Assembly: GCF_000953855.2 (NCBI RefSeq)
Contig: NZ_DF970247.1
Span: 1-33,277, forward strand
Direction of reading: 5' to 3'
Source of the DNA: Mizugakiibacter sediminis
Lineage (GTDB): Bacteria; Pseudomonadota; Gammaproteobacteria; Xanthomonadales; Rhodanobacteraceae
Length of the DNA: 33,277 nt
How positions within the stretch are numbered: position 1 is the first letter of the stretch; each line of letters begins with the position of its first letter. A program made the position numbers and the translations under genes. The notes beneath the pieces are model-generated. The model did no database searches. It worked only from the letters and a program-made list of their open reading frames with translations, and was not told the DNA's origin. Shown here piece by piece: positions 14,673 through 18,738 of the stretch.

Positions 14673-14825
14673 TCAGCGCCTGTGAAAAAACTCACGTCCC
14701 GCGAGTTTTTTCAGTCGTGAATCCGGCGCATGTCCGGACTCACTCCCGCGCAGCGAGCGCTTGCGCGCCCGCTGCGCGCGAGCCGTCCATGGCTCGCCTG
14801 AGAGGCTGTTTTTCACAGCCTCTCA
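14673..14825. repeat. Hairpin-rich interspersed repeat, copy A
   Basis: 153 bp, closely similar in the same orientation to 17025-17182. Four hairpins in order: GAAAAAACTC/GAGTTTTTTC (14684-14712, perfect 10 bp); GCGCAGCG/CGCTGCGC plus an inner GCGC/GCGC (14748-14777); CGAGCC/GGCTCG (14779-14796); TGAGAGGCTGT/ACAGCCTCTCA (14799-14825, perfect 11 bp, T-rich loop). The two ends are also roughly inverted (CTGTGAAAAA type). The last three bases form the TGA stop of the DUF3014 gene, so it lies directly at that gene's 3' end. The outer hairpins flanked by A and T runs could act as bidirectional terminators. Confidence 0.85.
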
Positions 14826-15635
14826 GTGCGCCGGCAGCGTCTGCCCGGCCAGCGCCGCGCGGATCTCGCGCAGCTTGGCCTTGACCCGGGCCTCGTTGTC
14901 CGCGCCGATGCGGATCATCGCCTTCTGCCCGAACGAGCGCGCCTCCAGCGCCGGATCGGCGTAGGTGTAGTACACGTTCGGCTGCGCCAGCGCGACCGGC
15001 GGCTGGACGTCGGGCGCGGCCAGCAGGTGGTCGATCACCGCGATCAGGCGGTCGTTGAAATAGCCCTTGGGATAGCCGAGGTCGCGGTAGGCCTGCTGGA
15101 ACAACGGGTAATAGTGCACGTACCAGGCGACCGCCGCCTGCGTGTCGACCGCTTCCAGCAGGCGCACGTAGGCTGCATAGCGCGCGGCATTGCGCTCGGC
15201 GATCACGCGCCGGCCGTTCGCCTCGGCGGTCTGGAACGCGCCGGGCGGGGTGCGCAGCGGCAGGATGTTGTTGCCGATCTGCGGCCGCGGCAGCGCGTCG
15301 ATCGTGGCGACGATGCGCGGGATGATCGCCTGCGGCAGCAGCAGCGCCTGCAGGCCGTCGGCGCCGGGCAGCGCGGACAGCGACCGCAGCACCGCGTCGT
15401 CGCTGTCGGCCAGCGCGGGCAGCGGCGCGGTCGAGGCGGGCGCGGCGGCGACGCGCTCGATCGGATGCTGGACGGGCGGCGGCGCGGTGGTGGTCGGGGC
15501 CGGTGCCGCCGCGGTCGCCGGTGCGGCGGTCCGCGCCTTCTGCTGCGCGTGGTACAGCCAACCCGCGATCGCCGCCGCGAGCGCGATCGCGCCCGCGCCC
15601 GCGATCCACCATCCGCCAGAGCTTCGTTGGGCCAT
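14823..15635 (-). CDS. DUF3014 family membrane-anchored protein
   Basis: A 270-residue protein. It has one N-terminal membrane helix (about 9-27), a Pro/Ala/Thr-rich linker (about 33-75) and a helical DUF3014 domain (about 78-265). The domain shows LSALPGADGLQALLLPQAIIPRIVATIDALPR, the Y-rich YVHYYPLFQQAYRDLGYPKGYFNDRLI and YYTYADPALEARSFGQKAMIR segments. The function of the family is not known. It is probably periplasmic with an N-in anchor. The start at 15635 is backed by GGAG seven bases upstream. Its stop codon is the last three bases of repeat copy A. Confidence 0.88.
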   Translation of the reverse strand: MAQRSSGGWWIAGAGAIALAAAIAGWLYHAQQKARTAAPATAAAPAPTTTAPPPVQHPIERVAAAPASTAPLPALADSDDAVLRSLSALPGADGLQALLLPQAIIPRIVATIDALPRPQIGNNILPLRTPPGAFQTAEANGRRVIAERNAARYAAYVRLLEAVDTQAAVAWYVHYYPLFQQAYRDLGYPKGYFNDRLIAVIDHLLAAPDVQPPVALAQPNVYYTYADPALEARSFGQKAMIRIGADNEARVKAKLREIRAALAGQTLPAH

Positions 15636-15712
15636 CGTCAATCTCCGTGCGCCGGATCGAACGGGGGATTGGACGCGCCGGCCGGCGAATCGTTCCGCGC
15701 CGGCGCCGACCC

Positions 15713-16291
15713 TCAGCCGAATGGACTGACGCCGATCCAGCGCGCGTGCAGCCAGAACGCGAACGCCGCCCACGCCGCCGCGCCGATCACCAGCGCGCCG
15801 AGGTCGCCGGCGAGCGTGCCCGCCGGATAGGTGGTGCCGGCGATCCGGTCGCGGCGCCGCCACATCGCGTAGTCGCCGGCCGCCCACAGCAGGAACGCGC
15901 CGAACAGCAGCACGTCGTGCAGGGAACCGTTCGTCAGCAGGTGGCCGAGCGCCCACAGCGCCGTGCCCGCCAGCATCGGGTGGCCGAGTTTCGCCCTGAA
16001 ATGGTTGGCCGGCCCGCGCGCGGCGAAGAACAGCACCAACGCGGCCAGCGTGAACAGCGCGTTGACGTGCCGCGCCCAGGCCGGCGGGGCGTACAGCGGC
16101 ACCGGCTGCTGGCGGGCCTCGCCGAAGCCCCACACGATCAGCACGAAGCCGACGATCGACACCACGGAATACAGCGCCTTCCAGCCGCGCGCGCCGAGGC
16201 GCGCCAGCATGCGCGTGCGCCAGCCTTCCGCGTACATGCGCAGCGAGTGCGCGCCGAGGAAGATCGCCAGGCCGAGGATCAACATCGCCAT
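15713..16291 (-). CDS. NnrU family membrane protein
   Basis: A 192-residue polytopic membrane protein with about six helices. Family hallmarks are GAHSLRMYAEGWR near the N-terminus, HVNALFTLAALVLFFAARGP and the KLGHPMLAGTALWALGHLLTNGSLHDVLLFGAFLLWA segment in the middle. NnrU was described with nitrite/nitric-oxide reduction genes and is related to isoprenylcysteine-methyltransferase-like membrane enzymes (NnrU/MddA). No denitrification genes are in the window, so the role is open. The start at 16291 is chosen over the in-frame ATG two codons later because GGAG lies about nine bases upstream. It is in the same direction as the DUF3014 gene, 77 bases ahead of it. Confidence 0.88.
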   Translation of the reverse strand: MAMLILGLAIFLGAHSLRMYAEGWRTRMLARLGARGWKALYSVVSIVGFVLIVWGFGEARQQPVPLYAPPAWARHVNALFTLAALVLFFAARGPANHFRAKLGHPMLAGTALWALGHLLTNGSLHDVLLFGAFLLWAAGDYAMWRRRDRIAGTTYPAGTLAGDLGALVIGAAAWAAFAFWLHARWIGVSPFG

Positions 16292-16404
16292 GCTGCAGTT
16301 CTCCGGGAGCGGTACGGGCCTCGCGCGCAAGGGTCCGACAGGCGGCACCCGGCGCGCAAGTCGCGCCGCGGCCGGCCCGGGCGCGGGGCCGGCCGCGGCG
16401 GCGT

Positions 16405-16911
16405 TCAGAACGCGCCGATGAAGTCGGCCTTGCCCAGCTCCACGCCGCAGTGGCGCAGGATCGCGTAGGCGGTGGTGCAGTGGAAGAAGAAGTTGGGGAA
16501 CACGTAGTCGAGCAGGTAGGGCTGGCCCTGCAGCGTCAGCGGACCGCTGCGCCGCGGCACGGTGACGGTGCGCGCCTCGCTGCCGTCGATCTGCTCCGGC
16601 TTCAGCGAGTTCAGGAAGGCGATCGCGCGGTCCAGGCGCGCGTACAGCTCGGCGAAGCTGGTCTCGTTGTCCTCGAACCTGGGCGCTTCGATGGCGGCCA
16701 GGCGCGCGGCGCCGTTCTTGACCATGTCGGTGGCGATCTGCACCTGGCGGGTCAGCGGAAACATGTCGGGATACAGGCGCGTCTGCAGCAGCACCTCAGG
16801 CGCGAAGCCTTTCGCCTGCGCGTGCGCCTCGCCCTTCTTCAGCACGTGGGCGAGGTTGGCAAGCGCGCGCACGAACACCGGCACCGAAGCCTGGTACATC
16901 GAGAGCGTCAT
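16405..16911 (-). CDS. DUF1993 domain protein
   Basis: A 168-residue soluble protein covering the whole DUF1993 domain. Segments typical of it are TLSMYQASVPVFVRALANLAHVL at the start, LYPDMFPLTRQVQIATDMVKNGAARLA, and PNFFFHCTTAYAILRHCGVELGKADFIG at the end. The domain is a DinB-like four-helix bundle; biochemical role unknown. The start at 16911 has AGGAG eight bases upstream. A TACACT promoter box lies 56 bases upstream. Repeat copy B separates it from the MFS gene. Confidence 0.88.
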   Translation of the reverse strand: MTLSMYQASVPVFVRALANLAHVLKKGEAHAQAKGFAPEVLLQTRLYPDMFPLTRQVQIATDMVKNGAARLAAIEAPRFEDNETSFAELYARLDRAIAFLNSLKPEQIDGSEARTVTVPRRSGPLTLQGQPYLLDYVFPNFFFHCTTAYAILRHCGVELGKADFIGAF

Positions 16912-16967
16912 GTCGGACTCCTGTCGATACGGGGAAAGGGCGCGGCCGCACGGCCGCGCGACGCGCC

Positions 16968-16973
16968 AGTGTA
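16968..16973 (-). promoter_or_regulatory. -10 box for the DUF1993 gene
   Basis: The minus strand reads GCGCTACACTGGCGCG. The 13-base core CGCTACACTGGCG is identical before folE and rmuC. Confidence 0.5.
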
Positions 16974-17024
16974 GCGCCCGACGCCGGCGGCAGACGCGGC
17001 GGCCGGCGCGATCCGTCGCGGCGG

Positions 17025-17182
17025 TCAGAGCTTGTGAAAAAACTCGCGTCCAGTGGGTTTTTTCAGTCGTGAGTCCGGCACAGGTCCGGACTCACTCCCG
17101 CGAAGCAAGCGCTTACGCGCTCGCTTCGCGCGCGAGCCGTCCATGGCTCGCCTGAGAGGCTGTTTTTTTTCACAGCCTCTCA
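17025..17182. repeat. Hairpin-rich interspersed repeat, copy B
   Basis: 158 bp, the same element as 14673-14825. The corresponding hairpins are at 17036-17064 (one T.G wobble in the stem), 17100-17129, 17133-17150 and 17153-17182 (11-bp stem, loop enlarged to eight bases). In the second hairpin the C-G pair of copy A is an A-T pair here, a compensatory change. It ends four bases before the MFS stop codon, again at a minus-strand gene's 3' end. Confidence 0.85.
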
Positions 17183-17185
17183 CGC

Positions 17186-18421
17186 CTACGCCGGCTGCGG
17201 CACCGGCTGGCGCGCGACCCGCCGCGCCAGCAGCGCGCCCGCGGTCAGCAGCAGCGCGGACAGCAGGAACGCCGCGCCCGGCAGGTGCAGATCGGCGTAC
17301 GCGCCGATGAAGGCGGCGAACACCTGGGTGAACAGCGCCGGACCGAAGATGCCGGCGAGGCTGGCCAGGCTGGTGATCGCGCCCTGCAGGCGGCCCTGCT
17401 CGTGCGGGTCGACCTGGCGCGTCATCAGCGCCTGCGTCGACGGGCCGGCCAGGCCCCACAGCGCCAGCAGCGGAATGCCGACGAGGAACACCGGGCCGCT
17501 GGTGGCGAGCCCCATCACCGCGAAACCTGCTGCGCCGCAGACCAGGCCGATCAGCAGCGTGCGCCGCTCGCCGAGGCGCGGCACCAGCCGGCCGACCAGC
17601 CAGGCCTGCGTGAAGGCGTTGCACAGGCCGACCAGCGCCAGCGTGTAGCCGACCGCCTGCGCGCCCCAGCCGTAGCGGTAGTCGGCGTACAGCACGAACA
17701 CGCTCTGCAGCACGTAGTGGGCGAGGTTGGAGAGGAACACCAGCGTCGCCAGGCCGAACACCTGCGGATAGCGACGCAGCAGGAACAGCGAGCCGAGCGG
17801 ATTGGCGTGCGCCCAGTCGAAGCGCGCGCTGCGCCGCTCCGGCGGCAGCGCCTCGGGCAGGATGAACCAGCCGTAGCAGAAGTTGGTCAGCGCCAGCAGC
17901 GCCGCCGCCCAGAACGGCGCGCGCAGGTGCCAGTCGCCGAGGAAGCCGCCCAGCGCCGGGCCGACGATGAAGCCGATGCCGAACGCCGAACCGAGCAGGC
18001 CGTAGCTGGCGGCACGCTTCTCCGGCGGCGTGACGTCGGCGATGTAGGCGTTGGCGGTGGTGAAGCTGGCCGCGGTCATGCCGGAGATGCAGCGGCCGAT
18101 CAGCAGCAGCGGCAGCGTGCCGACCAGCGCCATGAACAGGAAGTCGATGCCGATGCCGAGGTTGGACAGCAGGATCACCGGTCGCCGTCCGTAGCGGTCG
18201 GACAGCGCGCCCTGGATCGGCGAGCACACGAACTGGATCAGCGCGAACAGCGTGCTGAACACGCCCACCCACATCGCCGCGCGCGCGACGCCGCCGCCGG
18301 CCAGCCGCTCGACCAGATGCGGCAGCACGGGAATGATGATGCCGAACGACAGGATGTCGATCAGCACGGTCACGAACACGAAGATCACCGCGGCGCGGCG
18401 CACGGGAGCGCTTAAGGACAT
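17186..18421 (-). CDS. TCR/Tet-type MFS transporter
   Basis: A 411-residue major facilitator with about 12 membrane helices. The N-terminal helix carries [17 protein letters not shown], typical of TetA-like antiporters. Motif A is intact in the loop between helices 2 and 3 ([14 protein letters not shown], 71-84), and the antiporter motif region ([21 protein letters not shown]) is present. It is probably a proton-coupled drug or small-molecule exporter; the substrate cannot be read from sequence. No TetR-type regulator is adjacent. The start at 18421 removes an Arg-rich upstream frame that has no membrane character. It is divergent from the molybdenum hydroxylase operon. Confidence 0.88.
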
Positions 18422-18473
18422 GGCGGGTCTCGGGGGCAGGGGATCGGGCGCCGGCTGGGGCCGCGAAGGCGCG

Positions 18474-18479
18474 ATTGTA
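18474..18479 (-). promoter_or_regulatory. -10 box for the MFS gene
   Basis: The minus strand reads TACAAT followed by CGCGCC, 52 bases before the start codon; five of six consensus positions. Confidence 0.45.
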
Positions 18480-18590
18480 CGGATTCGGCGCGGCCGCTGC
18501 GCGGCCGTTCGCCGGGCGATCCGGCCAGCGGCGCCACGGCCGCAGCGGCGCGGCCGCCGCCGCCGCGTGGCGGCCGCCGCGCCGCCGGCG

Positions 18591-18596
18591 TATGCT
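18591..18596 (+). promoter_or_regulatory. -10-like box for the Mo-hydroxylase operon
   Basis: TATGCT followed by GGCCGC, which would leave a leader of about 140 bases before the start at 18739. The long leader makes this assignment uncertain. Confidence 0.3.
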
Positions 18597-18738
18597 GGCC
18601 GCATGCGTCCGCGCGCCCGCCGCCGCCGCAGTCCCGCCCCGCGGCTGTCGCCGCACCCCTCGTAGCGTGCCTTTCCGTCCGCGGCCCCGCCGCGCGCGGC
18701 GGGCCGCCTCGTCCTCGCCGTCGTCGCAGGGAGGTCCC

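Follow-up and report, generated by a model that had tools for sequence, protein, structure and literature searches.

The 33,277-nucleotide stretch of the Mizugakiibacter sediminis genome studied here (contig NZ_DF970247.1, positions 1 to 33,277; hereafter the window) contains two copies of a repeat that, on balance, we read as miniature inverted-repeat transposable elements (MITEs) with a conserved fold, which are predicted to act as decoys of the regulator CsrA/RsmA and/or as elements that influence the ends or the stability of mRNAs. Copy A (14673..14826) and copy B (17025..17183) both lie on the minus strand, which is the best reading strand and is named the R strand in the following. As stated in the original prediction, the copies have the same orientation and their ends fall within one base of where they had been placed; they are 86% identical. 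A search of the full genome returned about ten close copies and not two only, and both window copies are absent from the syntenic places in G001, a genome of the same genus. The repeat pair is thus not a chance resemblance.

Read from 5′ to 3′ on the R strand, the element begins with CTGA and hairpin 1, which contains the left end repeat (14798..14826 in copy A, 17153..17182 in copy B). Hairpin 2 follows with a loop of the type AUGGAY (14778..14797 and 17132..17151, AUGGAC in both copies), and then hairpin 3 with a GUAA/GCAA-type loop (GCAA at 14748..14777, GUAA at 17099..17130). Hairpin 4 is of the conserved type GUCCGG-ACAUGYG-CCGGAC (14713..14747 and 17066..17098). Hairpin 5 has an NGGAN tip on an A-rich/T-rich stem (14684..14712 in copy A, with an apical GGA and the right end repeat in the stem; 17035..17065 in copy B, with UGGAC in its apical part) and is followed by CACARGCKCTGA. 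All these assignments come from the fold, supplemented by loop conservation for hairpin 2 and by the alignment for hairpins 3 and 5 of copy A. Copy A has CTGA at both ends (14826-14823 and 14676-14673), copy B has GTGA at its 5′ end and CTGA at its 3′ end, and the ends form imperfect inverted repeats, in line with the roughly inverted ends noted earlier. The number of hairpins had been given as four, but unconstrained folding yielded five, with z-scores of -11.1 and -8.7 for the two window copies compared to shuffled sequence. The compensatory change from C-G to A-T is real and sits in the long hairpin 3: of the nine complete copies of the genome, copy A alone departs from the others there, and it does so on both sides. 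The wobble pair is likewise real and belongs to hairpin 4 of copy A.

It is very likely that selection acts on the folded strand. Selection on the folded structure had been proposed from the two window copies and is now supported: the stems covary, loops are conserved and G.T mismatches outnumber A.C mismatches. A covariance model and a covariation test showed that the core stems covary across lineages. Alignment A2 comprised 28 of the 31 cores found, without L034 and the two cores of L039; several loci whose matches were short or partial yielded no core. Standard pairs filled 91.9% of its 1090 cells, compared to 34.0-40.1% when the partners were slid (28 sequences, 27 distinct); the structure was drawn from the same 28 sequences, which favours the former percentage. 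Two-sided changes were observed in 26 of the 41 pairs in the stems of the four core hairpins, and none of 500 shuffles reached any of the observed measures.

The mismatches in these stems indicate which strand folds. When each combination of pair, genome and type was counted once, 102 G.T and 52 A.C mismatches were found in alignment A3, which contains the model's own sequences, and 80 and 36 in the copies outside the model (p = 5e-5; 7 of the 97 aligned matches had been dropped as opposite-strand, second or truncated). The same excess was present in genomes with YTAR-type ends (24:9, p = 0.014) and in genomes with CTGA-type ends (61:32, p = 0.0035). Since the genomes are related, these p-values are optimistic. 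A G.T mismatch on the R strand is an A.C mismatch on the other strand, and the excess therefore favours folding of the R strand over cruciforms or palindrome correction. This pattern favours the view that the R strand folds as RNA or as single-stranded DNA.

Two of the hairpin loops are conserved as well. In an alignment of 199 rows, which includes some second hits, hairpin 2 loops of standard length (178 rows) read A-N-G-G-A-Y, with G, G and A each at 92-98% and a free second base (T 107, G 40, C 19, A 12). Hairpin 5 loops (180 rows) read N-G-G-A-N, with G, G and A at 94-98% and a free last base. GGA was present in the hairpin 2 loop of 94 of the 110 rows of A3 and of 76 of the 90 copies outside the model, and in the hairpin 5 loop of 102 and 81, respectively, although the model was trained on GGA-bearing loops and favours finding them. 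The loops of hairpins 3 and 4 contained GGA in 0 and 2 of the 110 rows and in 1 and 0 of the 90 copies. According to the available text of PMC4333381, the motif of CsrA/RsmA is a GGA placed within a hairpin loop, and RsmU, a 3′ untranslated region (UTR) RNA of Xanthomonas, a member of the same order, is described in that of PMC7694677 as binding RsmA. Judged from its loops, the RNA of the element has about an even chance of being bound by CsrA/RsmA. A second repeat type in Rhodanobacter has a common core with the element and starts with extra GGA hairpins (GGCATGGATGCC, GCAGGAGC); it was seen in G528 and G539 at L434, L435, L438, L458, L459, L461, L462, L463, L466 and L468.

Both copies had been placed at the 3′ end of a minus-strand gene, and this was confirmed. 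The TGA stop of a DUF3014 gene (14823..15635, minus strand; PF11219 and a coding test of the frame) lies within copy A, whose first CTGA (14826-14823) forms the stop-codon context of this upstream gene. The TAG stop of an MFS transporter gene (17186..18604, minus strand; PF07690) precedes the start of copy B by a few bases. By domain search, the genes surrounding both copies are ordinary.

Across the family, the CTGA type starts exactly at the in-frame TGA stop of an upstream, coding-like frame on the same strand in 74 of the 79 copies examined: 9 of 10 in the host genome, 37 of 38 in G455, G539, G528, G408, G560, G320 and G209, and 28 of 31 in an additional set from G528 and G539. One of these 31, L435, belongs to the other end type, so that 28/30 is the cleaner count. 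The copies examined were the top of the score lists, except for G528 and G539, from which most of the listed matches were taken; 6 of 44 rows without a TGAGAGG-like end had been dropped from the set of 38, and 9 of 40 rows with the other end type from the set of 31. The coding test was crude, combining open codons with an excess of G+C at third positions, and the other two frames passed it in 0 and 2 of the 38 copies and in 0 and 1 of the 31. Several copies of G528 and G539 have the same flanks and are orthologous, so 74/79 overstates the number of independent insertions. Outside coding sequence, stop codons make up a share of 0.41-0.62 of the CTGA, CTGAG or CTGAGC sites of the window, against 0.24-0.50 for seven Rhodanobacter loci and 0.11-0.18 for 97 named loci. 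A target preference together with avoidance of genes therefore does not account for 74/79. Moreover, the 5′ CTGA is nearly invariant (42/43) and the 3′ CTGA has decayed (27/42 identical), as expected if the first CTGA alone is a working stop.

For the YTAR types, the link to stop codons is modest and without strand preference. By the same crude coding test, their left ends coincide with the stop of a real-looking gene in 8 of 71 cases and their right ends in 12 of 74, compared to 1-3 each in the control frames, and the YTAR target itself contains TAA or TAG. The earlier suggestion that the repeat also serves as a 3′-end element thus stands as far as position is concerned, strikingly so for the CTGA type; a service to the host gene is no more than a possibility, and the other end types lack a strand preference. 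A scan for terminators found none within the elements. Hairpin 5 of the host's own copies has a T-rich 3′ arm, and a T run after hairpin 5 is absent in many relatives. No promoter-like sites were found in a scan near the copies. A selenocysteine-type hairpin after the UGA was considered and, on reading the copies, rejected, because hairpin 1 has an A-run of variable length (5 to 8) and the frame is not kept.

That the repeat is a mobile element is practically certain, and the original description of a MITE-like mobile unit was upheld by the dispersed copies, by the empty sites and, in relatives, by matching 4-bp duplications and by IS5 transposons whose ends match those of the element. Its many copies are non-coding, lie dispersed and have inverted terminal repeats. 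The genes that flank the two elements have syntenic counterparts in G001, where neither element is present at the matching place, which identifies both copies as insertions. The empty site of copy A is a single CTGA, the stop codon of the same gene, with 45 extra G001 bases slightly downstream. The empty site of copy B agrees within a few bases; an alignment gap there leaves the exact base unfixed. The NnrU gene between the two copies (window positions 15713-16291) is also missing at the syntenic place of G001. A DNA search of the host genome with copy A gave 12 matches, namely nine complete copies including copy A itself, two half copies and one short palindromic shadow. The eight other complete copies are 86-90% identical to copy A, and the half copies, which lie at contig ends, are probably one copy split by the assembly. 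With the core covariance model, 21 matches at E <= 0.001 were obtained, including distant members and opposite-strand shadows. Two distant family members stand in tandem at G000:C10:6703-6970 (L051, L053) of the host genome.

Target duplications were found in relatives. The 4-mers at the ends vary between copies and agree within a copy in G039 (12/15), G047 (13/19) and G056 (16/18), counted where both ends were found; the shuffled means are 2.8, 4.0 and 8.9, and none of 10000 shuffles reached the observed agreement. These matching 4-mers are mostly YTAR. No recognisable end was present in 8 of the 79 copies used for this test, and the test does not discriminate in the CTGA type, where the end 4-mer is constant. 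IS5-family transposases (NF033581) bordered by nearly the ends of the element and by YTAR are present in G039 (18 DUF772 matches) and in G047 (one). A resident IS5 transposon with the same ends was thus found for the types of G039 and G047 and not for the CTGA type of the window. G056 and G049 gave no DUF772 match, the host genome no PF05598 or PF01609 match and G528 no PF01609 match. At L180 (G047:C11, around 1280), a copy of the element is interrupted by an IS5 transposon, which has inserted at CTAG beside hairpin 2. G320 has an IS5 transposon whose ends resemble those of a second element type present there. In G524, and likewise in G320, one and the same core is combined with different ends, indicating that it is older than a single set of ends or has been passed between sets.

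The search for the mover of the CTGA type extended to other enzymes. No DDE_Tnp_1 gene was found in the host genome, G528 or G491, and a CTGA-type end was absent at all 12 DDE_Tnp_1 loci examined elsewhere. Y1_Tnp genes were present in 12 of the 16 genomes searched, and a CTGA-type end matched at 2 of 30 Y1 loci, L491 of the host genome, which we judged to be chance, and L504 of G320. At L504 (G320:C1:353503-356724), the sequence resembling a CTGA-type end (around 210-226) is followed by other palindromes and lies ~1.3 kb from a weak Y1 transposase match. L491 (G000:C60:5373-5708) is the only Y1-type transposase gene of the host, and its GTAG-tagged flanking hairpins are unrelated to the element.

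The search of related genomes, which had been proposed as a check, showed that the family is dispersed in the order and the class. Relatives were present in 16 of 61 genomes by DNA search. The covariance model R1 (125 positions, 28 sequences) matched 75 of the 299 genomes surveyed in the host's order, which represent 36 of its 85 genera, and 16 of 274 genomes of its class, with the host genome included in each survey. Both surveys used strict filters and scored 11 or 12 candidates per genome, and the weakest matches lie near E = 0.001. Twelve genomes chosen for having copies gave from 4 to at least 150 matches each, and three Rhodanobacter-group genomes gave 50, 24 and 15; opposite-strand shadows may be among these counts. 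In named genomes, a pattern scan found at least 116 stretches, and the genera among its listed matches include Rhodanobacter, Dyella, Fulvimonas, Rehaibacterium, Aquimonas, Pseudomarimonas and Lysobacter. In G039, the core forms tandem arrays with a period of ~130 bases, of five units at G039:C1:3397626-3398270 and of three at 3364891-3365277. Carriage by plasmids or phages was dropped as a candidate, as copy B had no blastn match in either collection. We did not find the family described in the open-access literature on CsrA together with MITEs or repeats, on insertions at stop codons, on repeats in these bacteria, on TwoAYGGAY or on RsmA RNAs of Xanthomonas.

In the reading we prefer, an element would be transcribed along with the upstream gene and would become the 3′ UTR of that gene. 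The ANGGA loop of hairpin 2 and the NGGA loop of hairpin 5 could then bind CsrA/RsmA, and the dispersed copies may act as decoys and/or shape the end and the stability of the host mRNA. In a bolder form, for which we see slightly less than an even chance, this would be a transposable family of the Gammaproteobacteria with CsrA/RsmA-binding RNA as cargo, one branch of which is delivered specifically to sense UGA stops and turns dozens of unrelated mRNAs per genome into a distributed decoy. Several observations weigh against the preferred reading. Those copies with YTAR ends that sit at stop codons do so in both orientations, 8 sense and 12 antisense. Within genomes, 5 of 330 GGA positions and 31 of 880 other loop bases had changed, a difference that is not significant (p = 0.086), and the constraint may therefore act on source copies and not on every copy. 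Taken together, these two results leave room for a fold that serves the element only. G049 showed no matching duplications (3/19, shuffled mean 4.6). The csrA gene is present in all 27 element-bearing genomes examined, which says little because csrA is so common. No Rfam family was found at the gathering threshold in the window, and nine loci gave no match even with E allowed up to 1. Finally, RsmA binding and the phenotype were not lost when all four GGA motifs of RsmU were changed, according to the available text of PMC7694677, so that GGA alone is no proof of a CsrA/RsmA site.

A plain IS5-type MITE, whose palindromes are kept at the DNA level, by template switching that repairs imperfect palindromes or by cruciforms, without any role of RNA, is unlikely. 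It would agree with the matching 4-bp duplications, with the YTAR types lacking a strand preference and with the GGA positions not being significantly better kept within genomes, and it would explain the stop codons by the stop triplets within YTAR and CTGA and by purging of other insertions. However, strand-neutral processes should give equal numbers of G.T and A.C mismatches, and the observed ratio is about two; a conserved GGA beside free neighbours is left unexplained, and a stop share of 0.24-0.62 among non-coding CTGA-type sites of the window and Rhodanobacter does not lead to 74/79. Alternatively, the element could be an mRNA 3′-end element, either a terminator or a block to 3′ exonucleases, with loops that are not CsrA sites. 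The stable fold, the sense position of the CTGA type at the stop codon and the T-rich arm that ends hairpin 5 in the host's copies suit this idea, which we nevertheless consider quite unlikely, given the negative terminator scan, the many relatives without a T run after hairpin 5 and the two conserved GGA loops, for which it offers no explanation.

The orientation of the CTGA type could also be fixed without selection, if a single-strand (HUH/Y1-like) enzyme recognised CTGA as an asymmetric target adjacent to an end hairpin. The CTGA always has the same orientation relative to the element, and the lack of DDE_Tnp_1 genes in the three genomes mentioned and the frequency of Y1_Tnp genes would fit. 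On the other hand, a CTGA-type end was met at only the two Y1 loci described, one judged chance and one distant from its gene, the Y1 gene of the host is accompanied by a different, GTAG-type set of hairpins, and the restriction to stop codons would stay unexplained, so we regard such an enzyme as unlikely. We rejected the REP (repetitive extragenic palindromic) part of the original prediction, and mobilisation of a REP/REPIN by a REP-associated tyrosine transposase (RAYT) is hardly credible. The element resembles these repeats in being short, palindromic and dispersed, but at ~155 bp it is longer, it lacks the GTAG tag, and the single Y1-type gene of the genome has other hairpins beside it. 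The IS5-matching ends and 4-bp duplications of the relatives identify it as a MITE and not a REP.

Some known systems share features with the element. REP/REPIN sequences with their RAYT are dispersed palindromic repeats, from which the element differs in length, tag, ends and duplications as described above. The sponge RNAs CsrB, RsmY and RsmZ also have GGA in hairpin loops; they are single genes with their own promoters, whereas the element is a dispersed repeat at gene ends. The IS5-family MITEs of prokaryotes, as characterised in the available text of PMC10969869, are short and non-coding with inverted ends and 4-bp duplications, and some genomes hold the cognate IS5 transposon. In contrast to these, the element is G+C-rich, keeps a multi-hairpin core with regulator-type loops while its ends change, and in its CTGA type is strictly placed at stop codons. 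TwoAYGGAY RNA (Rfam RF01731) is a predicted CsrA-binding RNA, described in the available text of PMC4333381 with two hairpins that have CsrA-type loops (AYGGAY). The element differs in being mobile and in having five hairpins, whose single AYGGAY-type loop and single NGGAN loop lie far from each other, and cmscan of nine loci, with E allowed up to 1, gave no RF01731 match. RsmU of Xanthomonas campestris, from the same bacterial order, is likewise a 3′-UTR RNA that binds RsmA, as is predicted for the element; it is a single locus processed from one mRNA in the available text of PMC7694677, and the likeness drawn here concerns its origin and its binding. The QMITE elements of Coxiella burnetii are MITEs that are able to end genes and fold when transcribed, with different ends and a different motor, and CsrA loops are not mentioned in the available text of PMC5896051.

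In the family described here, the fold and its regulator-type loops persist across many lineages although the transposon ends change, and one branch of the family sits at stop codons with a precision beyond that of the target sequence alone. Bacterial MITEs are usually regarded as transposon debris. We know of no precedent for transposition that singles out stop codons, which would be new if true. If the RNA of the element binds CsrA/RsmA, a global regulator would be tuned by the number of copies that a selfish element has reached.

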